Source: Clostridiaceae bacterium
GTDB taxonomy: Bacteria > Bacillota > Clostridia > DSM-8532
NCBI GenBank assembly: GCA_012521705.1
Contig: JAAYLX010000027.1
Coordinates: 81,582 to 145,581 of the forward strand
Direction: 5' to 3'
DNA length: 64,000 nt
The first letter of the stretch is position 1. The number at the start of each line of letters is the position of its first letter. The translations under genes were made by a program, and so were the position numbers. The notes beneath the pieces are model-generated. The model worked only from the letters and a program-made list of their open reading frames with translations. It searched no databases and had not been told where the DNA came from. This document shows, piece by piece, positions 7,124 through 43,379 of the stretch.

Positions 7124-8567
<1,444 letters not shown>

Positions 8568-8624
8568 CAGGAGTTCCACGCTCTGAAAGGATTTATTCAT
8601 GAATTTTTGAATGGTTTTGGTAAC

Positions 8625-9194
8625 TTAATTTTCATATGTATTTAGTATCCGTTCGGCTACTTCCCTTTTTGTTATCCGCATGTCCATTGCCTGTTTTTCA
8701 AGATACCTGTGAGCCTCTTTTTCACTCATTCCAAGCAAGGATATCAATAAGCATTTTGCCCTGTCCACAATACGGATGTCTTCAATTTTTTGTTTCAGTT
8801 GTGTATTTTCGCTATGTACCTTTTTTATTCTGTTGTGAGCCGCCCTTGCAAGGGATAACGCAGACCAGAAAACATATTTGTTTATGGGTTTTGCAACAGT
8901 CAGAATTCCGTCCCTCTCGCATGCTGAGGCCATTTCTTCGTATAATTCTTTCTTTACAACAAGAATGACCTGAGTTATTCCATTTGAAGCCACATGGCGC
9001 GCAAAACTCTCACCTGTCTCATCCCTGAGTGGCGAATCGACAATCACAAGGTCAAAATCTCTGTCCATAAGTATTCTTCGCGCTTCACCGCAGGACTTTA
9101 CGGCGGTGATTTGACAGGCTGACATGGGGGTGAGTATATCTGAAAAGAATGTAGTTCCTTTTTCTGAACTTGAAACTATCATAATGTTTTCCAT
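8625..9194 (-). CDS. ANTAR-domain RNA-binding antiterminator (paralog 1)
   Basis: Probable transcription antitermination regulator. Residues 1-120 form a receiver-like domain (MENIMIVSSSEKG, then FDLVIVDSPLRDE) and residues 135-189 form an ANTAR domain (RAKCLLISLLGMSEKEAHRYLEKQAMD), the three-helix RNA-binding unit of AmiR and NasR. The start at 9194 is preferred over the ORF-track start because it aligns with paralog 2 and gives the same 189 aa. The receiver-like part keeps an Asp (VDSP) at the strand 3 position; whether it is phosphorylated is unclear. It lies directly after glnA, so it is probably co-expressed with glutamine synthetase, as described for NitR-type proteins of other clostridia (from memory). 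Confidence 0.9.
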   Translation of the reverse strand: MENIMIVSSSEKGTTFFSDILTPMSACQITAVKSCGEARRILMDRDFDLVIVDSPLRDETGESFARHVASNGITQVILVVKKELYEEMASACERDGILTVAKPINKYVFWSALSLARAAHNRIKKVHSENTQLKQKIEDIRIVDRAKCLLISLLGMSEKEAHRYLEKQAMDMRITKREVAERILNTYEN

Positions 9195-9238
9195 TCCCGT
9201 GCCGCCTTTCTGCCATGGGTTCAAGGAGTCGGTCATCT

Positions 9239-10558
9239 TCATACAAAGTTGAAATATCTCTTTTTATAGAACTCAGCTTTGTTGATCGCCTCTGAAAAAT
9301 CCTCGGCTTCTTTCTTTTTGAAGGAAAGGTATTTTCTAAGCAACTCTTCCCCTATCACACCTTTAACGAAACTGCTCTCTTCCGCAAGGCTGATTGCCTC
9401 ATTCATACTTGTCGGAAGCGGTGTAAGCGTTCTGGTCAGGTTTTCATCCGCAGTATATAAATCCACATTGGCGGCGGAAGGCAAAGCCAGGCCTTTTTCT
9501 ATACCCTCCAAACCTGCTGCGATAATAAGAGCATACGCAAGGTATGGATTTGTTGAAGGATCAGGGGAACGAAGTTCCATTCTTACCTTTTCCCCGAAAG
9601 CGGCGGGAATTCTTATAAGTTGTGAGCGGTTCTGGTGGGACCATGAAACGTATGCTGGAGCTTCAAACTTGCCAAGCCGCTCGTAAGAATTGGCAATCGG
9701 GTTTAAGAAGATGGTTATTTCGGGGGTTCTTGCAAGAATCCCTGCAATAAAGCTTTCAGCGACATTAGAATCGCCTTCCACTATATTTTTGAAAACGTTC
9801 AGACCGTTTTTAACAAGCGAAATATTAACGTGCATCCCGCTGCCGGGGCAGTCAAGCAAAGGTTTCGGCATAAATGAAGCAAACAGGCCATTACGTGCTG
9901 CAATTGTTTTTACAACTGTCTTGAATGACTGCAAATTATCGGCACTTGAGAGCGCATCGCTGAATTTGAAAATTATTTCATTCTGTCCCGGTCCCTGTTC
10001 ATGATGCGAGATTTCAGGTTTAATCCCCATTTCTTCAAGGGTCAGACATATCTCACGCCTAATATCACCGCCGCGGTCAAGAGGGTACATATCCAGATAT
10101 CCTCCCTTGTCAAGCGGGGTGTCTGTCGGATCTCCATCCTCGTTGGTTTTAAAGAGATAGAATTCACATTCAGCTCCGACTTTGCACACATATCCCATTT
10201 TATCGCATCTGGCTATGACCTGTCTCAGAATATTCCTGCTGTCGAGGGCATACAGGGTACCGTCAGGATTTTTTATGTCGCAGTAGAATCCGATGACTCT
10301 ACCCGGGCCCGGGCGCCATGGCATTACCATCAAAGTTGCAGGATCGGGGACCAATACCATATCGGACTGGACTATATCCCTGAATCCGCGTATGGCGTGA
10401 GCATCAAAAGTAACTCCGTTTTCAAGAGCAGATTCCAGTTCGTCAGCCATTATAGAAATTCTTTTCTGCGCTCCGAAAAGGTCACAGAAATTTAACCATA
10501 TGAACCTGACATCGTTTTCCTTTACAAAACTTAATACTTCGCTTGCAGTATAATTCAA
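9239..10558 (-). CDS. glnA: Type I glutamine synthetase
   Basis: ATP-dependent synthesis of glutamine from glutamate and ammonia. It is 439 aa, of the GSI-alpha size class. Recognisable motifs are GAECEFYLF (metal-binding Glu), HHEQGPGQNEI, GSGMHVNISL (ammonia and glutamate site), NSYERLGKFEAP and the C-terminal RSPDPSTNPYLA. The adenylylation-loop tyrosine motif of GSI-beta is not evident, so control by adenylylation is unlikely. The start codon is TTG, with AAGGGGG about 9 nt upstream. It has its own promoter at 10619-10647 and an ANTAR regulator follows. The window also encodes GSIII (glnN). Confidence 0.95.
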   Translation of the reverse strand: MNYTASEVLSFVKENDVRFIWLNFCDLFGAQKRISIMADELESALENGVTFDAHAIRGFRDIVQSDMVLVPDPATLMVMPWRPGPGRVIGFYCDIKNPDGTLYALDSRNILRQVIARCDKMGYVCKVGAECEFYLFKTNEDGDPTDTPLDKGGYLDMYPLDRGGDIRREICLTLEEMGIKPEISHHEQGPGQNEIIFKFSDALSSADNLQSFKTVVKTIAARNGLFASFMPKPLLDCPGSGMHVNISLVKNGLNVFKNIVEGDSNVAESFIAGILARTPEITIFLNPIANSYERLGKFEAPAYVSWSHQNRSQLIRIPAAFGEKVRMELRSPDPSTNPYLAYALIIAAGLEGIEKGLALPSAANVDLYTADENLTRTLTPLPTSMNEAISLAEESSFVKGVIGEELLRKYLSFKKKEAEDFSEAINKAEFYKKRYFNFV

Positions 10559-14410: not shown

Positions 14411-15460
14411 TTATAAAAGCATCAAACAAATAGTCCGTATCTTTGGCCCCCCGCAACCTTCGGGATGGAACTGCACTGAGAAGGTGGGTGAATTAAGATA
14501 TTTAATTCCTTCGCAGGTATTGTCGTTCATATTTATGAATGAAAGCTGCGCAATTGACTGGTCAATGCTTTCATTGGTAACACAATATCCGTGATTCTGG
14601 CTTGTTATATAAACCCGGTCGGCTTTCAGATCCTTGACAGGCTGGTTGGAGCCCCTGTGTCCGTATTTGAGTTTTCTTGTTTCAAAACCGTGGGCAAGTG
14701 CCAATAGCTGGTGCCCGAGGCATATGCCGAAAATGGGAACCTTCTTGTTTATAAGCTGCTTTAAATTGTTAATAATCCCCGGATTATCGGCGGGATCTCC
14801 CGGTCCGTTGGACAGCATTATGCCGTCCGGATTCTCTGCAAGTATTTTTTCGGTTGTTGAATCATAGGGAAGCACGATCACCCTGCAATCTCTTTTTGCC
14901 AGCTCTCTTACGATGTTTTCTTTATACCCGAAATCTAGAAGAACAATGGTATATTTACCATTGTCGTTAGCAGTTATTTTTTCTTTTACAGAAACACTTT
15001 CCACAGCCTGTTTTACCTTATAGGCCCTTATTTCATCCAAATCCGCTTTTTCAGGGTTTCTGGTAATAAGACCGTTCATTGTACCATGTTCGCGCAATGT
15101 CTTGGTCAGTTCCCTGGTATCGATTCCGCATAACCCTGGTATATTGCGCTCTTTCAAAAAGGTATCAAGATCACCTTTGCTCCTGAAATTGGAGGGGTTT
15201 TTGCACACATCCCTGGCAATGCAGCCATATGCTGCAACAGATTTACTTTCAAAATCCTCCGGTATAACACCGTAATTTCCTATAAGCGGATAAGTATGCA
15301 TTATTATCTGCCCATAATAGCTTTTATCGGTGAGGGTCTCAAGATACCCTGTCATACCGGTTGTAAAGACGATTTCCCCCAGCACTTCGCCTTCCGCTCC
15401 GAAAGAATAACCTTCGAATATTTTTCCTGTTTCAAGTACCAAGAACGCTTTATTCTGCAT
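14411..15460 (-). CDS. carA: Carbamoyl phosphate synthase small subunit, C-terminal frameshift
   Basis: Glutaminase subunit that feeds ammonia to CarB. The amidotransferase triad is intact: Cys247 in FGICLGHQ, His332 and Glu334 in FHPEG. Just after this the frame is lost in a run of six G (14447-14452 on the plus strand as C). The encoded tail PKIRTICLMLL is not CarA-like, whereas the +1 frame reads KDTDYLFDAFIKEV, which matches the family end. One extra G restores a protein that ends inside the dapF start. This could be a sequencing error, a slippery or phase-variable tract, or early decay. A second carA lies in the pyr operon at 42.3 kb and has a different defect. Confidence 0.9.
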   Translation of the reverse strand: MQNKAFLVLETGKIFEGYSFGAEGEVLGEIVFTTGMTGYLETLTDKSYYGQIIMHTYPLIGNYGVIPEDFESKSVAAYGCIARDVCKNPSNFRSKGDLDTFLKERNIPGLCGIDTRELTKTLREHGTMNGLITRNPEKADLDEIRAYKVKQAVESVSVKEKITANDNGKYTIVLLDFGYKENIVRELAKRDCRVIVLPYDSTTEKILAENPDGIMLSNGPGDPADNPGIINNLKQLINKKVPIFGICLGHQLLALAHGFETRKLKYGHRGSNQPVKDLKADRVYITSQNHGYCVTNESIDQSIAQLSFINMNDNTCEGIKYLNSPTFSVQFHPEGCGGPKIRTICLMLL

Positions 15461-15501: not shown

Positions 15502-16071
15502 TTAATATTCATATATTTTCAGAATTTCCTCGGCCACCTTTCTCTTTGGCAACCTCATATCCATGGCTTGTTTTTCAATATATCTGTGGGCCTCGGCTTC
15601 AGTCATGGAAAGATTAGAAATCAAAATACACTTGGCTCTGTCCACAATTCGGATATCTTCAATTTTTTGCATCAGCTTCAGGTTTTCTTCCCTTATCGCC
15701 TTGATCTTTTTACTTGTCGCCGAAGCCAGTCTTAACGCATTCCAAAGCAAAGAATTGTTAATTGGTTTTGCTATTGTGATAACGCCGTATTCCTCAACCC
15801 GGTAGGATATCTCATCAAAGACTTCAGATTTAACCAGCAGAATTACCTGGCTCGTTTTTTTCACGGCAATGTCCCTGGCAAGATTTGCGCCGAATTCGTC
15901 CGGAAGAGGAGAATTTACGATGCACAAATCATAGTCTTTATCAATCAAAACCCGCCTCGCTTTTCCGGCGTCAGAGACAGAGTCGATATCTTTAACGGAC
16001 GCTTTCTGCAATATCTTTGTCAAATATTCAGTACTTTTATCTGAAAATGATACAATTAGCGCACTGTCCAT
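15502..16071 (-). CDS. ANTAR-domain RNA-binding antiterminator (paralog 2)
   Basis: Second ANTAR regulator, 189 aa, the same length as paralog 1 and closely similar throughout: MDSALIVSFSDKS at the N-terminus, YDLCIVNSPLPDE at the pseudo-receiver strand 3, and IEDIRIVDRAKCILISNLSM leading the ANTAR helices. The strand 3 position is Asn (VNSP) where paralog 1 has Asp (VDSP), so this copy may not be phosphorylated there. It is the sixth gene of the glutamate synthase operon, placed to autoregulate through the hairpin and terminator at the operon's 5' end. The ATG is preceded by a GGGA-type site. Confidence 0.9.
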   Translation of the reverse strand: MDSALIVSFSDKSTEYLTKILQKASVKDIDSVSDAGKARRVLIDKDYDLCIVNSPLPDEFGANLARDIAVKKTSQVILLVKSEVFDEISYRVEEYGVITIAKPINNSLLWNALRLASATSKKIKAIREENLKLMQKIEDIRIVDRAKCILISNLSMTEAEAHRYIEKQAMDMRLPKRKVAEEILKIYEY

Positions 16072-16145: not shown

Positions 16146-16862
16146 TCAGTTATATGTGTACATCTGCTTATACGGGTTTTTAGCATTTGGTGTAAGCTTG
16201 TAAAAAGGTCTTCCCAGGATTTCATCCATGTCAACACCGAACAATTCTGAAAATTCTGTCAGGTATTCCTTAATTGAATCAATATCAGATTCATCTGCGG
16301 TGTTCATGCAGACCTGTTTGGGAAGGTACTTAAGCTTTTTGGGGCTTCTTATAAAGATCTGGCCTCCGTGCATTCCCGTACCTGTAAAGTTACCCACAGG
16401 AACATCTTCAGAGTTCAGGCCCAATACAATGATGATTCCTCCGGCAAGGTATTCACCCAAAAAGCTTCCGGTGGTTCCTCCAACTACAATAACCGGCTTT
16501 TTGTCCTTATATTCCTTCATATGTATACCTGTGCGGTATCCGGAATCACCTTTCACATAAATCTTTCCGCCACGCATGGCGTATCCCAGAGCATCTCCGG
16601 CATTTCCGTTAATAATTATTTTTCCGTCATTCATTGTATCTCCGACGGCATCCTGGGCATTTCCGTTCACTACTATGGTGGCTCCGTCAAGATAAGCGCC
16701 CAGCGCATTTCCGGGCGTACCGTTTATAGTGATTGTCTTTCCTGAGGCGCCGCTTCCGATGAAACGTTCACCGTAACAACGGTCAATAACAACATCCTCA
16801 TCAGTGTTCCGGATTATTTCATTAAGAGATCTATATCCCAAATCATGCGCCAATAGATTCAT
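16146..16862 (-). CDS. Glutamate synthase GXGXG domain protein (GltB C-terminal module)
   Basis: Stand-alone version of the C-terminal beta-helix domain of the glutamate synthase large subunit, 238 aa. The repeated glycine pattern is plain (GSGASGKTITINGTPGNALG, later NAGDALGYAM, and GGTTGSFLGEYLAGG). In GltB this domain is structural and positions the amidotransferase and synthase domains around the ammonia tunnel. Here the enzyme is split into separate modules, an organisation known from archaea and some clostridia. It overlaps the preceding oxidoreductase gene by 20 nt, with GGGAGG 8 nt before the ATG. Confidence 0.92.
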   Translation of the reverse strand: MNLLAHDLGYRSLNEIIRNTDEDVVIDRCYGERFIGSGASGKTITINGTPGNALGAYLDGATIVVNGNAQDAVGDTMNDGKIIINGNAGDALGYAMRGGKIYVKGDSGYRTGIHMKEYKDKKPVIVVGGTTGSFLGEYLAGGIIIVLGLNSEDVPVGNFTGTGMHGGQIFIRSPKKLKYLPKQVCMNTADESDIDSIKEYLTEFSELFGVDMDEILGRPFYKLTPNAKNPYKQMYTYN

Positions 16863-18090
16863 TTTTTATACCTCCCAGTTTTTCTGCCCGCGTCTTCCTG
16901 CTGAAGGCCATAAGTCCCGGCATCTTGCAGATAAGTTCAAAATTCAGCGTGTCAAGCGGAGTCCTTTCCCTGATGAGCGAAGTATATATTCCCGCCTTCT
17001 CAATATTTCCAATAAGAATAAATCCATTTAACCTGTTATTTGAATAAAACAGCTTCTTATAGTTTTTTTGTTCGGAATCAGAATATACTTCTCCGGTATA
17101 GGTTCCCGCAGTCATTATGTGAAGACCGAACAAGCCGATTGAGTTCATGGGGAACGCCTTGTCAAATACAAAATCAACTCCCGACATATTCATTCCCGCG
17201 CACTCTCCCTGCATGTAAGCATTTGGAAGAAGTGCCATTACCTTAGCTTCCTCTGAGGAAATATCAATACTCTCGCTGCAGTCACCCGCCGCATAGATGT
17301 CCGGGATTGAAGTTCTGCATCTTTCATCTATGATAATGCCTCTGTTTGTTTTCCCTCCTATATCCTTTATCAGGGATATATTGGGTCTCACACCGACTGC
17401 CAGCACCAGTACGTCAAACTCAATTTCCGTATTGTCGCTCAGATATGCGATATTCCCCTCGAATTTCGCTATCTGCTGTTTCAAATAAAACTTTATATTA
17501 TGCTCTTCAAGGTGCCCTTTTACTATTGCAGAGCTTTCTTCATCAAGAATACTTGAAAGAACTTTAGGGGCAAGGTCCACACAGGTAATCTCAACATTCT
17601 TTTTACTGATTCCCTCGGCACATTTGAGGCCTATGAGGCCCGCTCCCACAATAAGTACCTTCATATTCTCCTTAAGTACGTTGTCCAGGGCCCTGGCATC
17701 ATCGAGGGTGTAAAAAGTGAATTTATTTTTGACCTCGTCCAGTCCCGGCATGGGCGGAACAAATGGCGAAGATCCGGTACAAACCAAAAGTTTGTCATAA
17801 CTTACAGATGTTCCGTCATCAAGGATGACCTGCTTTTTCTCAGGCTCAATCCTTACTGCGGTTTTATTAAGCATGAGTTCGCACTTATTGTCTCTGTAAA
17901 AATTGTCACCCCTGTATTTCATTCTGTGTTCGTCGGTTTTGCCCAATAAAAGGTATGAAATAAGCGGCCTTGAATAAACATGATGACTTTCATTGCTGAT
18001 TATTACAATGCTGCCCTCTTTATCATTTCTGCGGATCGCCTCAACCGCGCCCACCGCAGCAGTAGAATTACCGATAATTACATATTGCAT
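16843..18090 (-). CDS. FAD/NAD(P)-dependent oxidoreductase of the glutamate synthase operon
   Basis: Pyridine nucleotide-disulfide oxidoreductase-fold flavoprotein, 415 aa from the preferred start MQYVIIGNST at 18090, which has AGGAAAGGGG upstream and lies 2 nt after the 4Fe-4S gene stop. It has an N-terminal FAD dinucleotide motif (GNSTAAVGAVEA, a variant of GxGxxG), a second nucleotide motif (IVGAGLIGLKCAE) and the C-terminal FAD motif (DIYAAGDCSES). There is no CxxxxC redox disulfide, so it resembles NADH oxidase or rubredoxin reductase-like proteins. With the 4Fe-4S neighbour it probably supplies electrons from NAD(P)H to the synthase, replacing GltD; the electron path is inferred. Confidence 0.88.
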   Translation of the reverse strand: MQYVIIGNSTAAVGAVEAIRRNDKEGSIVIISNESHHVYSRPLISYLLLGKTDEHRMKYRGDNFYRDNKCELMLNKTAVRIEPEKKQVILDDGTSVSYDKLLVCTGSSPFVPPMPGLDEVKNKFTFYTLDDARALDNVLKENMKVLIVGAGLIGLKCAEGISKKNVEITCVDLAPKVLSSILDEESSAIVKGHLEEHNIKFYLKQQIAKFEGNIAYLSDNTEIEFDVLVLAVGVRPNISLIKDIGGKTNRGIIIDERCRTSIPDIYAAGDCSESIDISSEEAKVMALLPNAYMQGECAGMNMSGVDFVFDKAFPMNSIGLFGLHIMTAGTYTGEVYSDSEQKNYKKLFYSNNRLNGFILIGNIEKAGIYTSLIRERTPLDTLNFELICKMPGLMAFSRKTRAEKLGGIKNESIGA

Positions 18091-18092
18091 AC

Positions 18093-18527
18093 TTAAGCAC
18101 CCCTTTCCTCGAACACGATTGCTCCGTTGGGACAACCCAGAACACATTGGGGAACTCCCGCATGAGTCTTTATACAGAGCTCACATTTCTGAATTGCTCC
18201 GTCATCGGAGGGCTGAACTGCGCCATAGGGGCAGGATAATACACAGGTATAGCAGCCAATGCACTTTTCCTTGTCGATTGTTATGATGCCGTCGTTCTTT
18301 GAAAGTGCGCCTGTTATGCAACCCTTCACACAAAAGGGCTCATCGCAGTGGCGGCATGAGACCGCAAAACTTATACCGTCCATTTCCTCAATCCTGATTC
18401 TGGGACTGATTTCAATGTCTTTTAAGACTAAAGCCATGTCTTTTCCGCCCGTTGATGCAAATGCGCAATAATATTCACACAAGTGACAACCAAGGCACCA
18501 TTTTTCATTCACATAAACACGTTTCAT
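18093..18527 (-). CDS. 4Fe-4S ferredoxin-type electron-transfer protein
   Basis: Polyferredoxin of 144 aa (start MKRVYVNEKW at 18527, favoured over the longer ORF). The cysteine clusters CLGCHLCEYYC, CRHCDEPFCVKGC, CIGCYTCVLSC and CELCIKTHAGVPQCVLGC predict up to four 4Fe-4S centres, as in HycB/DmsB-like subunits. It lies between the synthase and FAD oxidoreductase genes with almost no spacing, so it probably carries electrons between those two proteins in the cytoplasm. Confidence 0.92.
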   Translation of the reverse strand: MKRVYVNEKWCLGCHLCEYYCAFASTGGKDMALVLKDIEISPRIRIEEMDGISFAVSCRHCDEPFCVKGCITGALSKNDGIITIDKEKCIGCYTCVLSCPYGAVQPSDDGAIQKCELCIKTHAGVPQCVLGCPNGAIVFEERGA

Positions 18528-18556
18528 TACTTTTACACCACCAGAATGCAATTATT

Positions 18557-20062
18557 CTATTCCCCCGCATGCTTGATTCCCAATATCTCAAGCTCTTTCT
18601 CATTAAGACCCACACCTCTTAGCATGAGCCGGTTGCCCTTAAGGGCTTCTATTGAGTTAATGCCCATACCGCCCATCATTTCTTTAATTTCGTGTTTCCA
18701 GGCGGTTATGAGATTGACAAGTCTCTTATATCCCAGATTGGGGTTAAGGCGCTTTACAAGTTCCTCTTTTTGGGTTGCAATACCCCAGTTGCATTTACCG
18801 GTATGGCAGCTACGGCACAAATGGCATCCAAGGGCAATCAGAGCCGCAGTTCCTATGTAGACTGCATCAGCACCAAGAGCAACTGCCTTTACGACATCGG
18901 CACTGGAACGGATACTGCCTGCAACCACCAGGGAGACATTATTGCGGATACCCTCATCACGGAGCCGTTTGTCCACACTGGCCAGCGCCAGTTCAATGGG
19001 AAGCCCCACATGGTCACGAATACGTGTGGGAGCAGCGCCCGTTCCTCCCCTGAATCCGTCAATGGCAATTATGTCAGCACCGCTTCGTGCAATTCCGCTC
19101 GCAATGGCGGAAACATTATGCACAGCGGCAATTTTTACTATGACAGGCTTCGTATAGCCGGTTGCTTCCTTCAGGGAAAATACCAGTTGCCGCAAATCCT
19201 CTATGGAATAAATGTCATGGTGTGGCGCAGGAGATATGGCGTCGGAACCCTCGGGTATCATACGGGTTTTTGAAATATCCCCGACTATTTTTGCTCCGGG
19301 GAGATGTCCTCCGATACCGGGTTTAGCGCCCTGGCCCATTTTTATCTCAATTGCGGCGGAACTGTTAAGATACGCCTTGTGAACTCCAAAACGTCCGGAT
19401 GCTACCTGTACAATTGTGTTTTTGCCGTATTTATAGAAGTCCTCGTGGAGGCCACCCTCACCGGTGTTATAAAGAATACCGAGTTCGGAAGCAGCCCTTG
19501 CAAGGCTTTCATGTGCGTTATAGCTTATTGAGCCATAACTCATGGCGGAGAACATAACAGGGACCGAAAGCTCTACATGGGGAGGCATAACTTTCTTTAT
19601 ACGGCCGTTCTCGTCCCTTTCAATATTCTGGGCTTTGGAACCAAGCAGGACCTTGGTTTCCATAGGCTCTCTCAAAGGGTCTATTGAAGGGTTTGTGACC
19701 TGGGAAGCATTGAGCAGTATCTTGTCAAAATACACGGGATACTTTTCAGGATTTCCCATGCTTGACAGCAAAACTCCTCCACCCTCGGCCTGCTTATAAA
19801 TCTCCTGAATACTTTTTCCGGACCAGTTAGCGTTCTCCTTGAAGGTATGATCGGTTTTTACAATTTTCAGGGCCCTTGTCGGGCACAGGGACACACACCG
19901 GTGACAGTTCACGCATTTGGAATCATCTGCCACCATCTTTTTGATATCCTTCAGATATTCATGAACTTCGTTTGCGCATTGCCTCTCGCACACGCGGCAG
20001 GCGATGCAGCGGTCATAATTTCTTACCACTTCATATTCTGGATATATGTAATTAACAGCCAT
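18557..20062 (-). CDS. Glutamate synthase, FMN synthase domain with N-terminal ferredoxin domain
   Basis: Core synthase module, 501 aa. Residues 15-70 hold two 4Fe-4S motifs (CIACRVCERQC and CVNCHRCVSLC). The rest is the FMN-binding glutamate synthase barrel that combines ammonia with 2-oxoglutarate, with motifs GEGGLHEDFYKYG, KMGQGAKPGIGGHLPG, DGFRGGTGAAPT and the 3Fe-4S ligands CHLCRSCHTGKCNWG. The fused ferredoxin domain is typical of archaeal-type and clostridial single-domain enzymes. Its ATG overlaps the stop of the amidotransferase gene (TAATG). Confidence 0.95.
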   Translation of the reverse strand: MAVNYIYPEYEVVRNYDRCIACRVCERQCANEVHEYLKDIKKMVADDSKCVNCHRCVSLCPTRALKIVKTDHTFKENANWSGKSIQEIYKQAEGGGVLLSSMGNPEKYPVYFDKILLNASQVTNPSIDPLREPMETKVLLGSKAQNIERDENGRIKKVMPPHVELSVPVMFSAMSYGSISYNAHESLARAASELGILYNTGEGGLHEDFYKYGKNTIVQVASGRFGVHKAYLNSSAAIEIKMGQGAKPGIGGHLPGAKIVGDISKTRMIPEGSDAISPAPHHDIYSIEDLRQLVFSLKEATGYTKPVIVKIAAVHNVSAIASGIARSGADIIAIDGFRGGTGAAPTRIRDHVGLPIELALASVDKRLRDEGIRNNVSLVVAGSIRSSADVVKAVALGADAVYIGTAALIALGCHLCRSCHTGKCNWGIATQKEELVKRLNPNLGYKRLVNLITAWKHEIKEMMGGMGINSIEALKGNRLMLRGVGLNEKELEILGIKHAGE

Positions 20063-21150
20063 TACGATTTTCCTTTCTCAAGTGTGATAATTACTCCTTC
20101 GCCGCCTTTTGGTGACCAGACTCTGTCCAAGTCATTCTGAATAACTCTTATTGCAGCTTCTTCACTGGCAACGTAAAACATGTCATCTTTTTCTCCCACC
20201 ACCATACTGCGAAGCTTGAGTCTGTCATTGAGGGCCATAAGCCCGCCCTCAAAGCCTACAATTATGGAGAAGGGCCCGGTAATTAACAATGAATCGAAAG
20301 TACTTCTTAAAAATTCAAGCTCTTCCCTTTCTTCCTGCGGTTTCCTCTCTATTGTTGACCAGAAGGGAGCTGCGATAACCGAGCAGACCTCCTTTAAAGT
20401 AAGTCCTTTCTTTCTGTTAAGATAATCGATAATATAGGTAATTACTTCGGTATCTGTCTGTAAAGTGCATTTGTATCCATACATTTCAATTGAACGGCGG
20501 TTGGCATCATAGGAAGATATTTCACCGTTATGCACCACTGAATAATCAAGCAGTGCAAAGGGATGGGCGCCTCCCCACCATCCAGGAGTATTTGTAGGGT
20601 ATCTTCCATGGGCTGTAAAGCAATATCCCTCATATTCCTCCAGACGGTAGAAACGTCCCACGTCTTCGGGATATCCCATTGCCTTGAATACACCCATGTT
20701 CTTTCCGCTCGAAAAGACATACGCACCCTTTATGGACGTGTTAATCCTGAAAACACATTTAACTACAAATTCTCTCTCATCCAGCTGACTGCTGGCAAGT
20801 TTGGTCGGCAGCGGTGTGACAAAGTATCTCCATATCAAAGGTTCATCCTTAATCTGCGGTACCTTACGGGTAGGTATTTTCGAAAGGTTTATTATGTCAA
20901 AATGCCTTTCTAAAAACTCTTCACATTCCTTTTTGGCAGCAAAGTTGTCATAAAACATGTGAAAAGCGTAGAAATCCTTGTATTCCGGATAAATACCATA
21001 GCCTGCGAACCCTCCGCCAAGTCCGTTGGAACGTTCGTGCATAACAGATATGGAATCTATGATAAGCTCGCCGGAAAAGCGTTTTCCCGATTTCGAAAAG
21101 ATACCCGATACTGCACACCCTGATAAATTTCTGAACATTCCTTCTCTCAC
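20062..21150 (-). CDS. Class II glutamine amidotransferase module of glutamate synthase
   Basis: Releases ammonia from glutamine for the synthase module. I start at the GTG at 21150 (VREGMFRNLSG), because GGAGG lies 8 nt before it; the ORF-track start would reach into the leader RNA. Length is 362 aa. The N-terminal nucleophile cysteine lies at residue 12 (SGCAVSGIFSKSG), so an 11-residue propeptide must be removed, as in GltB. Other amidotransferase motifs are GRYPTNTPGWWGGAHPF and VHNGEISSYDANR. It is the first gene of the operon, behind a promoter and a hairpin/terminator leader. Confidence 0.93.
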   Translation of the reverse strand: MREGMFRNLSGCAVSGIFSKSGKRFSGELIIDSISVMHERSNGLGGGFAGYGIYPEYKDFYAFHMFYDNFAAKKECEEFLERHFDIINLSKIPTRKVPQIKDEPLIWRYFVTPLPTKLASSQLDEREFVVKCVFRINTSIKGAYVFSSGKNMGVFKAMGYPEDVGRFYRLEEYEGYCFTAHGRYPTNTPGWWGGAHPFALLDYSVVHNGEISSYDANRRSIEMYGYKCTLQTDTEVITYIIDYLNRKKGLTLKEVCSVIAAPFWSTIERKPQEEREELEFLRSTFDSLLITGPFSIIVGFEGGLMALNDRLKLRSMVVGEKDDMFYVASEEAAIRVIQNDLDRVWSPKGGEGVIITLEKGKS

Positions 21151-21166: not shown

Positions 21167-21296
21167 AAAAAAATAAGGCATTCATCACATAGTACAAATA
21201 AGGGCACACAGCCAAATAGGCTTGTTTGCCTGTAACTATCTGATGAACGCCTTTGTTCATATGGCTTATAATACTATAATCCAATATTTGTGTCAA
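21167..21296 (-). promoter_or_regulatory. Glutamate synthase operon promoter and ANTAR-type hairpin/terminator leader
   Basis: The promoter is TTGACA (21291-21296), 17 nt, TATTAT (21268-21273). The predicted transcript starts almost exactly at a hairpin AUGAAC-[AAAGGC]-GUUCAU (21243-21260), whose hexaloop has A1 and G4 as in ANTAR targets. The loop and 3' arm (AAGGCGUUCAUCA) can instead pair over 13 bp (one G-U) with UGAUGAAUGCCUU (21175-21187), followed by AUUUUUUU, an intrinsic terminator enclosing smaller internal stems. Hairpin and terminator are mutually exclusive. The terminator ends shortly before the GGAGG of the first gene. The match to ANTAR antitermination is inferred; the pairings are seen. 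Confidence 0.75.
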
Positions 21297-21431: not shown

Positions 21432-21519
21432 TTGACATTGTTTTAACGCCATGCTAATCTTTTTTCATACAGCAAAGGTGCTGTGGATTTAATTTGTCCG
21501 CGGCACCTTTGCTTTTTTT
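21432..21519 (+). promoter_or_regulatory. asnA-glnN promoter and ANTAR-type hairpin/terminator leader
   Basis: The promoter is TTGACA (21432-21437), 17 nt, TAATCT (21455-21460). The transcript should begin at about 21467, immediately before the hairpin ACAGC-[AAAGGU]-GCUGU (21469-21484), again a hexaloop with A1 and G4. The same bases form the 5' arm of a 17-bp terminator: AGCAAAGGTGC plus TGTGGA pair with TCCGCG plus GCACCTTTGCT (21497-21513), followed by seven T. Downstream, before the AAAGGAG site, another stem forms around GCAATC-TCA-GATTGC with flanking CCTGCC/GGGTAGG. A T-box was considered and rejected, as no specifier stem or TGGNACCGCG is present. Confidence 0.78.
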
Positions 21520-21613
21520 GTTTCCGAAGTTACAAGATTCCCGGTTCCCTGCCTGCAATCTCAGATTGCCTGGGTAGGCGGGATTCAAAATAATTCTTGA
21601 AAGGAGCGAAAGT

Positions 21614-22621
21614 ATGAGTCAATTGACAATACCAAAAGGGTACAAATCACTGTTAAGCCTGTATGATACCCAAAGTGCAATAGGAAGGATAAAGAGGATT
21701 TTTGAGGATAATCTTGGCAAAGCCCTTAATCTGAAAAGGGTCTCAGCACCATTATTCGTTCTTGCCAACACAGGAATTAATGATGACCTTAACGGTGTTG
21801 AACGTCCTGTTGAATTTGATATTAAAGAAACCAAAGGCTATGCCCAGGTTGTACATTCATTGGCAAAATGGAAACGCCTGGCACTGCATAAATACGGATT
21901 TCCTGTAGGTGAAGGTCTATATACCGACATGAACGCCATTCGCCGCGACGAAGATATGAGCAATCTCCATTCAATATACGTAGATCAATGGGATTGGGAA
22001 AAAGTTATAGACCGCGAAACAAGAAATGTTGAAACCCTGAAGGACACGGTGAGAAAAATAGTAGGTGTTATATGTGACACTCTTGAAGAACTCAAAAAGC
22101 TTTATCCGGTCATTACACTGGATCTTTCAAGGGAAGTATCATTTATAACCACACAGGAACTGGAAGATATGTACCCGGCCCTTTCACCCAAAGAACGTGA
22201 AAACGAATATTTAAGGGATCATAAAACTGCTTTTATTATGCAGATCGGAGATACATTGAAATCAGGCATCAAACATGACGGAAGGGCACCTGACTATGAC
22301 GACTGGAAACTCAATGGCGATATCCTTTTCTGGAACGACATTTTAGGATGTGCTTACGAAGTATCCTCCATGGGTATTCGTGTAGACAGGGATTCATTGG
22401 ATGAACAGCTCTCCAAGGCGGGATGCGACGACAGACGCAGTCTGGAGTTCCATAAGATGCTTCTTAATGATGAACTGCCTTTAACCATGGGCGGTGGAAT
22501 AGGACAATCAAGAGTATGCATGCTTCTGTTGCAGAAAGCCCATATAGGTGAAGTTCAGGTATCGGTTTGGGATCAGGATACCATTAAGGGCTGTAAAGAA
22601 GCAGGAATTGAATTGCTTTAA
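21614..22621 (+). CDS. asnA: Aspartate--ammonia ligase (asparagine synthetase A)
   Basis: Makes asparagine from aspartate, ammonia and ATP without glutamine. It is 335 aa, matching AsnA (about 330), with an aminoacyl-tRNA synthetase class II-like fold. Typical segments are VERPVEFDIK, HSLAKWKRLAL, DMNAIRRDEDMSNLHSIYVDQWDWE and the C-terminal GGGIGQSRVCMLLL motif. AAAGGAG lies 8 nt before the ATG. It is the first gene of an operon with glnN, 18 bp downstream, so two ammonia-fixing ligases share the same hairpin/terminator leader. Confidence 0.96.
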   Translation: MSQLTIPKGYKSLLSLYDTQSAIGRIKRIFEDNLGKALNLKRVSAPLFVLANTGINDDLNGVERPVEFDIKETKGYAQVVHSLAKWKRLALHKYGFPVGEGLYTDMNAIRRDEDMSNLHSIYVDQWDWEKVIDRETRNVETLKDTVRKIVGVICDTLEELKKLYPVITLDLSREVSFITTQELEDMYPALSPKERENEYLRDHKTAFIMQIGDTLKSGIKHDGRAPDYDDWKLNGDILFWNDILGCAYEVSSMGIRVDRDSLDEQLSKAGCDDRRSLEFHKMLLNDELPLTMGGGIGQSRVCMLLLQKAHIGEVQVSVWDQDTIKGCKEAGIELL

Positions 22622-22639: not shown

Positions 22640-24751
22640 GTGTCAAATAATAATAATAGTCATAATATAACCGAAATATTTGGCAGTATGGTATTTGGGG
22701 ATGCCGTTATGAAAGAACGGCTGCCAAAAGATATCTATAAAGCTCTCAAGAAAACCATTGCCAACGGAACACATCTGGAACTTGACGTAGCCAATGTGGT
22801 TGCCACTGTTATGAAAGATTGGGCTATCGAAAAAGGAGCTACCCATTTCACCCACTGGTTCCAGCCCATGACAGGTGTTACCGCAGAAAAACATGACAGT
22901 TTCATTGTTCCCGACGGCAGCGGTAAAGCCATAATGGAGTTTTCAGGAAAAGCCCTCGTAAAAGGTGAGCCTGACGCATCAAGCTTCCCTTCCGGAGGCT
23001 TGAGAAGTACCTTTGAAGCCAGGGGTTATACAGCATGGGATCCTACCTCTTATGCTTTTGTAAAGGGCAATACTCTGTATATTCCCACAGCTTTCTGCTC
23101 ATACAGCGGAGAAGCCCTGGACAAGAAAACTCCCTTGCTCCGTTCCATGCAGGCTCTCAACAAGCAGGCGCTTCGTGTCCTTCAGTTATTTGGCGTTACT
23201 GATGCAAAACGCGTGGTGTCATCTGTAGGACCTGAACAGGAATACTTCCTGATAGACAGGGATGTATATTTGAAAAGGCCAGATCTTATGTACTGCGGAA
23301 GAACTCTGTTCGGCGCACGCCCGCCAAAAGGACAGGAAATGGAAGACCACTACTTTGGTACCATTAAACAGCGGGTTTCAGATTATATGCGCGAACTTAA
23401 CGAGGAACTCTGGAAATTGGGAGTATATGCAAAGACTGAGCATAATGAAGTTGCTCCTGCACAGCATGAGCTTGCGCCCATTTACTCAGAATCCAATATT
23501 GCAACAGATCACAACCAGTTGGTAATGGAAATGATGAAGAGTGTTGCGGCAAAACACAACCTTGCTTGTCTGTTGCATGAGAAACCTTTTGCAGGAGTAA
23601 ACGGCAGCGGAAAACACGTTAACTGGTCTGTCGCCACTGACACAGGAATAAACTTGCTTGAACCTGGTGATACGCCGTTTGAAAATGCTCAATTCCTCCT
23701 TTTCCTTGTAGCAGTAATCAAAGCTGTGGACGATTATCAGGATCTTATGCGTGTTTCTGTTGCAAGCGCTGGCAACGATCACCGCCTTGGTGCCAATGAA
23801 GCGCCTCCTGCAATAGTTTCTATCTTCCTTGGAGACGAACTTACTGAAATACTGAACGCTTTGGAAAACGACACATTATATACAGGCAAAGGCCAGACTT
23901 TAATGGAAATCGGAGCAACAGTGCTTCCTCATTTCCCGAAGGATACAACCGACCGAAACCGTACATCACCCTTTGCCTTTACAGGAAATAAATTTGAATT
24001 CCGTATGCTTGGTTCAGCCTTTTCAATAGCAGGACCCATTATCGTGCTCAACACAATAGTTGCCGAAGTGTTGTCACAATTTGCAGACGAACTTGAAAAG
24101 AGCACTGATTTCAAGGCGGATCTGAGCAAGTTAATCAAAAGGACCATTAAAAACCATAAGCGTATCATTTTCAATGGAAATGGTTATGACGCCGCCTGGG
24201 TGAAAGAAGCCGAACAGAGAGGGTTATCCAATCTGAAAACAACACCCGAAGCACTGCCGGCCCTCATTCATCCGAAAAATGTGGAAATGTTTGTCCGTCA
24301 TGGAGTATTTTCAGAGCACGAACTTCATTCACGGTATGACATTCTGCTTGAAAACTACTCAAAAACCATTAATATTGAAGCTCTTACAATGATAGACATG
24401 GTAAACAAGCATGTAATTCCAGCCGTGATTGACTACCAGAACGAACTTGCCGAACTGGTGCTTCGTAAAAAGGCAGTAAGTCCTGACATTGCAACAACTC
24501 TTGAGGAAAACCTCCTGAGTAAAATATCCAGACTGTCTGTAAGCCTTGAAAAGAGACTGAATCATCTGTCAGAACAAACCATCGCAGTCAGGGATATTAA
24601 AGACAATCTGGAACTTGCCAAAGCATACCGTGAAAAGGTTTATATGGCGATGAGCGAGCTGCGTCTTGTAGTTGATGAGCTTGAAATGTTAATCGGAAGC
24701 AAGCATTGGAAATTGCCTACATACGCTGAAATTCTGAACAGCGTAAACTAA
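22640..24751 (+). CDS. glnN: Type III glutamine synthetase
   Basis: Large GSIII-class glutamine synthetase, 703 aa, the normal length for the family and much longer than GSI. Visible motifs are [31 protein letters not shown] (metal-binding Glu), [18 protein letters not shown] and [15 protein letters not shown]. The start is GTG with GGGAGGG 11 nt upstream. It is co-transcribed with asnA, so ANTAR-type antitermination at the leader would raise asparagine and glutamine synthesis together. Its end is followed by a strong hairpin and a terminator. Why this genome carries both GSI and GSIII is not shown by the sequence. Confidence 0.96.
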
Positions 24752-25085: not shown

Positions 25086-25820
25086 TTATTTCTTCTCACC
25101 ATAGATTACCGGCATTTTGCGCTTATGGTGGCTTGCATTGTGATACCTTTCAATAATTGCCTTATCTTCTTCGCTGACTTTGCCGGTAAGCAAAAACTCG
25201 TCAATCTTCTTATATGTTATTCCCATTTCACTCTCATCGGTCTGTCCGTCAAAAAGTCCTGCGGAAGGCGCTTTGGTGATAATGGATTCAGGAGCGTTGA
25301 GGTAGCGCAGGAATTCGTAAATCTCGGTTACCGTCAAATCTGCAATGGGGTTAAAGTCATAGGCACTGTCGCCCCATTTTGTAAAGTAGCCCATGTAGCC
25401 CTCACTTCGGTTTCCCGTACCCGCTACGAGCCTGTTTTCGCTGGCAGCCACAGTATAAAGAGTTGTCATGCGCAGGCGTGGAGCAATATTTACAAGTGCC
25501 GTATCATTTACAGTGGTCGCGCCAACAACTGCGTCAAGGAATGTCGAGCGCACTTGGGTCAGATCCACAACTCGCTGTTCAATTCCAAACTGTTTTGCAA
25601 CAGCTTCGGCGTCTTTTTTGTCCTCTTCATAGTTTCTCCTTGAACCGCAGGGCATAATAATTCCAACCGTATTGTCACATGCCTTCTTGCAAAGAATACC
25701 CACCAGTGCGCTGTCTTTTCCGCCACTGTTGCCGTAAACTATGCCGCTTGCATTGGAAGAAGCAAGCACCTCCCGGATAAACTCAACCCGTTTTATTGTT
25801 TCAAGTGCATAATCTCTCAT
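25086..25820 (-). CDS. nadE: Ammonia-dependent NAD+ synthetase
   Basis: Final step of NAD synthesis: amidation of deamido-NAD. It is 244 aa from the preferred start MRDYALETIK (25820), where AGGAG lies 8 nt upstream. The PP-loop motif YGNSGGKDSALVG is near residues 31-43, with the later GTGNRSEGYMGYFTKWGD segment typical of NadE. There is no N-terminal nitrilase (glutaminase) domain, so it should use free ammonia, as expected of the short form. It has a long structured leader of the same hairpin/terminator type as the glutamate synthase operon, placing NAD synthesis in the same regulatory group. Confidence 0.95.
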   Translation of the reverse strand: MRDYALETIKRVEFIREVLASSNASGIVYGNSGGKDSALVGILCKKACDNTVGIIMPCGSRRNYEEDKKDAEAVAKQFGIEQRVVDLTQVRSTFLDAVVGATTVNDTALVNIAPRLRMTTLYTVAASENRLVAGTGNRSEGYMGYFTKWGDSAYDFNPIADLTVTEIYEFLRYLNAPESIITKAPSAGLFDGQTDESEMGITYKKIDEFLLTGKVSEEDKAIIERYHNASHHKRKMPVIYGEKK

Positions 25821-25904
25821 CTTCAGCTCTCCTTTCAATATATCCGGTATTACGGCAGAGCGCCGAAGCCGGATTTATGTTTTCGTACTTCAGGCCAGAA
25901 TCAA

Positions 25905-25998
25905 ACAAAAAGGTGCTCATCACATAACGCATTCAGCTAACCGCAATAACAGATCCGGTGTTATGGCTGATACATTATAGGATGAACACCTTTGTTCA
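25905..25998 (-). promoter_or_regulatory. nadE leader with ANTAR-type hairpin and terminator
   Basis: The hairpin UGAAC-[AAAGGU]-GUUCA (25983-25998) lies just after A/T-rich -10 candidates (TAATAT, TATAAT). Its loop and 3' arm AAGGUGUUCAUC (25981-25992) pair over 12 bp (one wobble) with GAUGAGCACCUU (25910-25921), followed by UUUUUGUUU, a terminator. Between the arms a further hairpin forms (AUAACA / UGUUAU inside CAGC / GCUG). The layout and the sequence GAACAAAGGYGUUCAUC are nearly identical to the glutamate synthase leader. The promoter is less clear than for the other two leaders. Confidence 0.72.
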
Positions 25999-42314: not shown

Positions 42315-43379
42315 TTATTTATCCATCATGGAAATGAACTCGTCATAAAGATAACCAGTGTCCCCGTATCCCGAAGAGACTTCCGGATGGAACTGAACTC
42401 CGAAAGCGGGGATTTTTATGTACTTTATTCCTTCAACAGTGTTGTCGTTCATATTTATATGGGTGACAACCGCAGATTCAGTATCAAATTTGTCGGCTGA
42501 AACTACATATCCATGGTTCTGGGCTGTAATATATGTCCTGTCCTTGCCAAGATCCTTTACCGGGTGATTTCCGCCCCTGTGCCCATATTTCAGTTTTGTT
42601 GTTTCCCCGCCCATGGCCAATGCCAGTATCTGATGCCCCAGACCTATACCGAATACGGGAAGTTTGCCCAGAAGTTTTTTCACAACATCCACCTGGGATT
42701 TGCAATCCTGAGGGTTTCCAGGCCCGTTTGAAAGAAGGATTCCATCGGGTCCGACAGTCAGAATTTCTTCTGCTTCCGCATTTGCGGGGAATACATAGAC
42801 ATCGCAATTTCTTTTTGTAAGGGAATTTAATAAACTACCTTTGACGCCGTAATCCAAAACTGCCACCTTATGGCCTGTTCCCGGGATATGATACATCTTT
42901 TCGGTTGTCACATTCCCGACGAGATTTCCGGGCTTGAAGTTGCGAATCTTATTCAGGCATTCTTCATGTTCCAGTCCGGCGTCCGTGGTGATAATTCCGT
43001 TCATAGTGCCTTTTTCCCTTAAAATCCTGGTAAGTTCACGGGTATCTATTCCTTTTAATCCGATTACCCCGTTCTTCTTTAAGTAATTGTCAAGAAAGTC
43101 CACTGAACGCCAGTTGCTTGGCTCGTCGCAAAACTCTCTTGCAATTAACCCCTTTACGCAGATTTTGTCCGAAGTTACATCTTCCTCATTTACGCCGTAA
43201 TTTCCAATGAGGGGATAAGTCATTGTGACAATCTGCCCGGCGTTTGTCGGATCAGTCAGTAGTTCCTGATAACCGGTCATTGATGTATTGAAAACCACTT
43301 CTCCAATATATGTGCCTTCGGCCCCAAAGGCCTCGCCGGTGAACCGGCTTCCGTCTTCCAAGATCAGAAATGCTTTCAT
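42315..43379 (-). CDS. carA: Carbamoyl phosphate synthase small subunit lacking the catalytic Cys
   Basis: CarA paralog of the pyr operon, 354 aa, with a complete C-terminus (YGDTGYLYDEFISMMDK). The class I amidotransferase elbow reads VFGIGLGHQ: Gly246 replaces the nucleophilic Cys expected in GICLGHQ. The codon is GGT (plus 42642-42644), one base from TGT. The partner His and Glu (FHPEVS) remain. Without the Cys it should not hydrolyse glutamine, so CarB would depend on free ammonia or on the other CarA at 14.4 kb. It follows pyrF by a 4-nt overlap. Confidence 0.93.
   Translation of the reverse strand: MKAFLILEDGSRFTGEAFGAEGTYIGEVVFNTSMTGYQELLTDPTNAGQIVTMTYPLIGNYGVNEEDVTSDKICVKGLIAREFCDEPSNWRSVDFLDNYLKKNGVIGLKGIDTRELTRILREKGTMNGIITTDAGLEHEECLNKIRNFKPGNLVGNVTTEKMYHIPGTGHKVAVLDYGVKGSLLNSLTKRNCDVYVFPANAEAEEILTVGPDGILLSNGPGNPQDCKSQVDVVKKLLGKLPVFGIGLGHQILALAMGGETTKLKYGHRGGNHPVKDLGKDRTYITAQNHGYVVSADKFDTESAVVTHINMNDNTVEGIKYIKIPAFGVQFHPEVSSGYGDTGYLYDEFISMMDK

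Follow-up and report, generated by a model that had tools for sequence, protein, structure and literature searches.

The leader of the glutamate synthase (GOGAT; gltS) operon and its relatives described here are very probably ANTAR-controlled transcription attenuators that make do with a single hexaloop at the transcript 5' end where canonical targets have two, and that would together govern an autoregulated nitrogen-assimilation regulon. The initial annotation of this DNA had proposed an autoregulated antitermination switch at the gltS leader, an interpretation that sequence comparisons now support, with binding of an ANTAR protein as its predicted step. Three such leaders lie in the window, that is, the whole stretch of 64 kb analysed, and others occur elsewhere in the same genome and in many relatives.

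The promoter of the glutamate synthase operon is of the sigma-A type and lies on the minus strand (21268–21296), with TTGACA (21296–21291) and TATTAT (21273–21268) boxes that match the consensus at 11 of 12 positions and are separated by 17 nt; its spacing to the hairpin is the same in homologues. Within about 8 nt follows the hairpin P1, AUGAAC[AAAGGC]GUUCAU (21243–21260, minus strand), an A1/G4 hexaloop conserved and covarying in homologues, which would serve as the antiterminator; we infer the transcription start from the promoter only. The loop and 3' arm of P1 are reused by an intrinsic terminator (21167–21253, minus strand), as the initial annotation had noticed, the terminator 5' arm AAGGCGTTCATCA (21253–21241) overlapping the hairpin at 21260–21243 and pairing with the 3' arm TGATGAATGCCTT (21187–21175), after which ATTTTTTT extends to 21167 with a U tract at 21173–21167. 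Re-reading of the minus strand reproduced the sequence and coordinates originally given for this leader, together with the 13-bp terminator, one pair of which is G–U and whose stem is lengthened internally by RNAfold. The hairpin and the terminator are mutually exclusive, and this structure, with a stem of at least 3 bp, is conserved. Since the terminator form folds at −40.9 kcal/mol (z −7.1, matched by 0 of 200 shuffled sequences) and P1 folded alone at −4.3, the RNA by itself should terminate. An open frame for a leaderless peptide, AUGAACAAAGGC..., is present in the window, and was rejected as a functional feature because relatives (L010 and L014) lack its AUG or have GUG instead.

Downstream of this leader, on the minus strand, the operon runs from the class II glutamine amidotransferase subunit of glutamate synthase (20062–21150, with a GTG start at 21150 placed by homologues, which begin VREGMFRN) through the FMN/ferredoxin-dependent GltB-type subunit (18557–20062), a 4Fe-4S ferredoxin-type protein (18093–18551), an FAD-dependent NAD(P)H oxidoreductase (16843–18147) and a GXGXG protein of the glutamate synthase C-terminal type (16146–16862) to ANTAR protein 1 (15502–16071), which is indeed the sixth gene, as previously stated. 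The next gene of the cluster encodes a CarA-type small chain of carbamoyl phosphate synthase (14411–15460). It is one of two carA-type genes on the minus strand of the window, the other (42315–43379) lying beside carB in a pyrimidine cluster. A second ANTAR protein (ANTAR 2; 8625–9242, minus strand) is predicted to contact RNA through the same residues as ANTAR 1, and its start is overlapped by a gene for type I glutamine synthetase (9239–10558, minus strand). Downstream of ANTAR 2, gdhA has its own promoter-like sequence, TTGACA...TTATTT (8505–8640, minus strand), without a hexaloop, unlike the gdhA genes of four other loci (L073, L075, L132 and L134), which do carry the element.

A scan of both strands of the 64-kb window for A1/G4 hexaloops that have a stem of 5 bp or more and overlap a terminator returned exactly three elements, where first-order Markov resampling yields 0.05 per strand. 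These are the gltS leader, to which the initial annotation had been confined, and the leaders of asnA (plus strand, from 21468) and nadE (minus strand, from 25998). The asnA-glnN operon is divergent from gltS, so that both operons of the pair begin with the same switch, as read from their sequences. Its promoter, TTGACA-17-TAATCT (21432–21460, plus strand), is conserved in relatives and precedes the P1 hairpin UACAGC[AAAGGU]GCUGUG (21468–21485), the loop and 3' arm of which are shared with a terminator (21471–21520; 18-bp stem at 21471–21513 and U7; minimum free energy −32.0, z −8.9). This leader, which matches the covariance model at E 1.3e-11, is followed by genes for ammonia-dependent asparagine synthetase (asnA; 21614–22621, PF03590) and type III glutamine synthetase (glnN; 22640–24751, PF12437). 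The nadE leader has the hairpin UGAAC[AAAGGU]GUUCA (25983–25998, minus strand), again sharing its loop and 3' arm with a terminator (25905–25993; minimum free energy −42.3, z −7.0), upstream of the NAD synthetase gene (25086–25838, PF02540); its promoter is uncertain. The loop is thus AAAGGC in gltS and AAAGGU in asnA and nadE. The regions ahead of gdhA, glnA, dapF and pyrG of the window contained no such combination of hexaloop and terminator. When the same genome was searched with a covariance model built on asnA/glnN leaders, the best additional match was upstream of an amtB-type ammonium transporter gene on a different contig, where two single-hexaloop elements stand in tandem, UAGC[AAAGGC]GCUG and CGCAC[AAAGGC]GUGUG (contig C54 of genome G000, at about 38127 and 37952 on the minus strand; positions 528 and 353 of L219).

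Among same-family relatives, gltS homologues with both divergent leaders are near-universal. A wider set of 80 loci was gathered by alignment of the first GOGAT subunit; at the 78 with enough upstream sequence, a candidate element precedes gltS in 53 and was undetected in 25. These 80 loci yielded 126 elements and, with the family set included, 152 elements at 81 loci, hosted mostly by Clostridia and in part by Spirochaetes; named carriers include Defluviitalea phaphyphila (L071), Marasmitruncus massiliensis (L109), Clostridium methylpentosum (L116) and Sphaerochaeta halotolerans (L126). The downstream genes encode GOGAT in 60 cases and type III glutamine synthetase (GSIII) in 31, followed by asnA (22), amtB (17), gdhA (5), asnB (2) and one each of glnA, dapF, purC and nadE, with 11 elements lacking an assigned gene; gene names were backed by Pfam for the representatives checked. 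Further elements in relatives stand before glnA, asnB, glmS, guaA and an ABC transporter gene. As those before glmS, guaA and asnB (L214, L215, L216 and L217) precede genes whose products are all glutamine-dependent amidotransferases, the regulon appears to extend past ammonium assimilation. The ABC transporter ATPase gene at L212 (contig C5 of genome G088) is preceded by three tandem single-hexaloop attenuators at 297, 382 and 464, and tandem pairs also occur upstream of L015 asnA and L132 gdhA. Homologue loops are mostly AAAGGC or AAAGGU, with G or A at position 5 and C, U or A at position 6; A1, A2 and G4 were selection criteria of the survey. Against Rfam, no family reached its gathering score, the matches being at chance level (E 0.3 or worse).

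Because the first homologue scan demanded P1, pairing of P1 in that set proves nothing. We therefore give more weight to an unbiased test, in which terminators starting in an AANGRN motif were collected with no condition on the sequence 5' of the motif. Among 308 such candidates, 46% could form P1 of at least 4 bp, compared with 9% when the 5' arms were exchanged among candidates, and the hairpin was present in 102 of the 108 that had promoter-like sequence just upstream. Covariation in the hexaloop stem, on which the initial annotation had made its reading depend, was found in the homologous leaders and extends to the terminator arm: stem positions 2–4 change in three strands together, namely the P1 5' arm, the shared arm and the terminator 3' arm, with the triplets AUA (51) and GCG (51) at position 2 and GCG (57), CGC (45) and AUA (13) at position 4. 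The covariation scores, computed on alignments of pre-selected sequences, were 0.348 for P1 (0.193 in shuffled alignments) and 0.415 for the terminator (0.241), neither being reached by any of 500 shuffles. Taken alone, the asnA/glnN class shows little variation in P1.

The leader also accompanies ANTAR proteins across genomes. Two ANTAR genes of the present genome, both located in the window, exceed the curated PF03861 cut-off of 27.3 bits, with scores of 63.3 and 58.4; a third, weak match falls below it. In the covariance-model search that the initial annotation had suggested, 73 of 391 genomes of the class matched the leader with an E-value of 1e-6 or lower, and ANTAR, present in 196 of the 391, occurs in 70 of these 73; the p-value of 1e-20 ignores shared ancestry, which inflates it, yet the contrast is large. 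Among GSIII-bearing genomes, the leader is found in 67 of 160 with ANTAR and in 3 of 92 without. The three genomes with a strong leader match in which ANTAR was undetected (G010, G069 and G290) are all draft assemblies. An exact hairpin pattern run over the class was likewise commoner with ANTAR (88 of 196 genomes versus 43 of 195), but chance matches were mixed in and the covariance model was used instead; a loose pattern, AAAGGYG...CRCCTTT, run over the family was dropped as too noisy, the controls often being equal. In genomic position, an ANTAR gene of the same subfamily is found in 49 of the 80 loci, usually some 6.3 kb beyond the start of gltS on the same strand, and at 4.7–7.3 kb on that strand in 41 of the 61 loci whose sequence extends far enough. 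Independent expression work on C. thermocellum reports that the ANTAR gene Clo1313_2030 tracks the GOGAT cluster Clo1313_2030–2036 (PMC4676874).

The remark in the initial annotation that only one hexaloop is present holds across the homologues, and bears on the reading of these leaders as canonical dual-hexaloop targets whose second hairpin is cryptic, having a weaker loop or stem or being supplied by a second RNA. EutV requires both hexaloops for antitermination, which an altered linker abolishes (PMC3369931, PMC8934654), so that a lone hexaloop might not suffice; moreover, the window gltS leader contains a hexaloop-sized hairpin, AGGC[AAACAA]GCCU, 11 nt past P1. Its AAACAA loop, however, lacks G4 and is not conserved in relatives, and in 149 leaders second A1/G4 hexaloops on stems of at least 4 bp are at chance level, with one upstream (1.4 expected) and one downstream (1.0 expected). 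With 3-bp stems, there are 7 upstream against 5.7 expected and 8 downstream against 3.1, the slight downstream excess comprising unlike and apparently unrelated sequences. The asnA terminator loops are too small to hold a second hairpin, and upstream of P1 the promoter leaves no space: a promoter could be assigned to 120 of the 152 elements, and in most of these 7–13 nt separate the −10 box from the 4-bp core of the stem, so that the hairpin would start at about +1 to +5 of a transcript whose start is deduced from the promoter. We regard a cryptic second hairpin as quite unlikely. With respect to the 2012 definition of ANTAR targets, the leaders have the A1/G4 loop, the stem, the overlap with a terminator and an ANTAR protein in the genome, and lack the second A1/G4 hexaloop; the element is best called a variant of the ANTAR target that would work like one.

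Other readings retain the architecture and differ as to what acts on it. A genuine switch that responds to a small ligand or to an RNA-binding protein other than ANTAR would accommodate the few leader-bearing genomes without a detected ANTAR, ANTAR binding itself being a prediction; we regard this as quite unlikely, since the A1/G4 hexaloop agrees with the known recognition pattern of ANTAR proteins, which occur in nearly all leader genomes and at most loci in the same operon, and since no Rfam family fits and elements of about 45 nt are too short for a ligand-binding domain. That ANTAR binding would instead reduce expression, for example by stabilizing a paused or terminating complex, has a precedent in the mycobacterial ANTAR proteins that repress translation (PMC8164766), but is very unlikely here, because P1 and the terminator exclude each other, so that holding P1 opposes termination, and both NitR and EutV are activators. 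The least probable explanation, to which we assign hardly any weight, sees in the palindrome an operator that acts as DNA at +1, with a terminator that is constitutive or incidental. At the DNA level, ATGAAC-N6-GTTCAT is perfectly palindromic and lies at the predicted start site, but the arms are wholly different in the gltS (AUGAAC), asnA (ACAGC) and amtB (ACAC/GCAC) leaders, even in one genome, whereas the loop is fixed, which is the reverse of what a DNA operator would show, and changes in the arms are mirrored by the terminator 3' arm 30–80 nt away.

Returning to the ANTAR-controlled attenuator, the predicted readers appear to form a pseudoreceiver subfamily, judging from sequence. The residue equivalent to the phospho-acceptor Asp54 of EutV is Asn in 44 of 51 homologues, ANTAR 1 included, and the acidic pocket is mostly Ser, Ala or Gly; ANTAR 2 has kept the Asp, but with SSS in place of the acidic pocket. 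Both receivers of the window thus look degenerate and non-phosphorylatable, and this general loss makes phosphorylation by a kinase unlikely as the main input. AmiR and NasT are likewise ANTAR proteins with pseudoreceivers, and are released by a partner protein. The present proteins resemble them in having a receiver that is not phosphorylatable in the usual way and, as in AmiR, a His at the position of EutV Tyr164, whereas no AmiC/NasS-like sensor gene was seen in the operon and a glutamine synthetase gene adjoins ANTAR 2; that glutamine synthetase is the sensor partner is a guess. Compared with the residues that contact G4 or fill the loop in the EutV structures (6WSH and 6WW6; Walshe 2022, PMC8934654), K149, E160 and M172 are invariant in the 51 homologues and R175 is kept in 46, while Tyr164, which stacks on G4, is replaced by His and Arg168 by Glu in all 51. 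It is conceivable from these substitutions that the proteins grip a single loop in a different way. The ANTAR domain and several loop-contact residues are common to them and EutV, which differs in being phosphorylated at Asp54 and in depending on two hexaloops for antitermination.

In the predicted mechanism, the terminator would win when no active ANTAR protein is present, and RNA polymerase would stop within the leader. Under nitrogen scarcity, binding of an ANTAR protein to the A1/G4 loop of the emerging hairpin would keep P1 closed, so that transcription may run on into the GOGAT, asnA-glnN, nadE and amtB genes, and the ANTAR gene within the GOGAT operon would close a positive autoregulatory loop. 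Because the receivers mostly lack the phospho-Asp, the signal probably arrives via a partner protein, for which glutamine synthetase and PII are candidates. The polarity and the nitrogen signal are backed by NitR, an ANTAR protein of C. saccharobutylicum that, according to the outline of the 2007 work in a review (PMC6316151), induces GS/GOGAT genes by antitermination on nitrogen limitation.

The relation of these leaders to known systems is worth specifying. ANTAR targets were defined as A1/G4 hexaloops overlapping terminators, in a dual-hairpin model with nitrogen genes predominant, glutamate synthase in Desulfotomaculum among them (2012; PMC3369931). The leaders share with the dual-hexaloop RNAs of eutP in Enterococcus faecalis, nasF and amiE (Ramesh 2012, PMC3369931) the A1/G4 hexaloop, the short stem, the overlap of loop and 3' arm with an intrinsic terminator and the nitrogen genes, including glutamate synthase, but have a single hexaloop, which lies right at the 5' terminus of the transcript, with neither linker nor upstream P1. 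The glnA-nitR/GOGAT system of C. saccharobutylicum (Stutz 2007, as related in PMC6316151) is alike in proteins and target genes, being a clostridial ANTAR system for GS/GOGAT, and here too an ANTAR gene follows a GS gene; beyond the targets given in that account, the present regulon adds asnA-GSIII, nadE and amtB and, in relatives, gdhA, asnB, glmS, guaA, purC and dapF. ANTAR control of nitrogen genes and NitR antitermination of Clostridium GS/GOGAT have already been reported, and the single-hexaloop form appears to be new. No paper describing single-hexaloop attenuators was found in the literature searched, which left most subscription journals out of reach; published searches for ANTAR targets demanded two hexaloops, and such a class would have escaped them. 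The EutV structure paper established a single hexaloop as the minimal binding motif and asked whether such sites exist, leaving their role open (PMC8934654).

On a broader scale, we consider it likely, though with less assurance than for the leaders themselves, that these elements represent a widespread and separate class of ANTAR attenuators in Clostridia and Spirochaetes, having one hexaloop at the first nucleotides of the transcript, pseudoreceiver ANTAR readers with a His/Glu signature for the Tyr/Arg of EutV, and a global nitrogen and amide-transfer regulon. If this is true, the need for two hexaloops would be a trait of Eut/Nas/Ami-type systems and not of ANTAR antitermination in general, and leaders of about 45 nt make the role of a single hexaloop directly testable. 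The leaders further predict control of ammonium assimilation and of asparagine, glutamine and NAD synthesis in a broad group of anaerobes from gut and environment, with many uncultured lineages among them.
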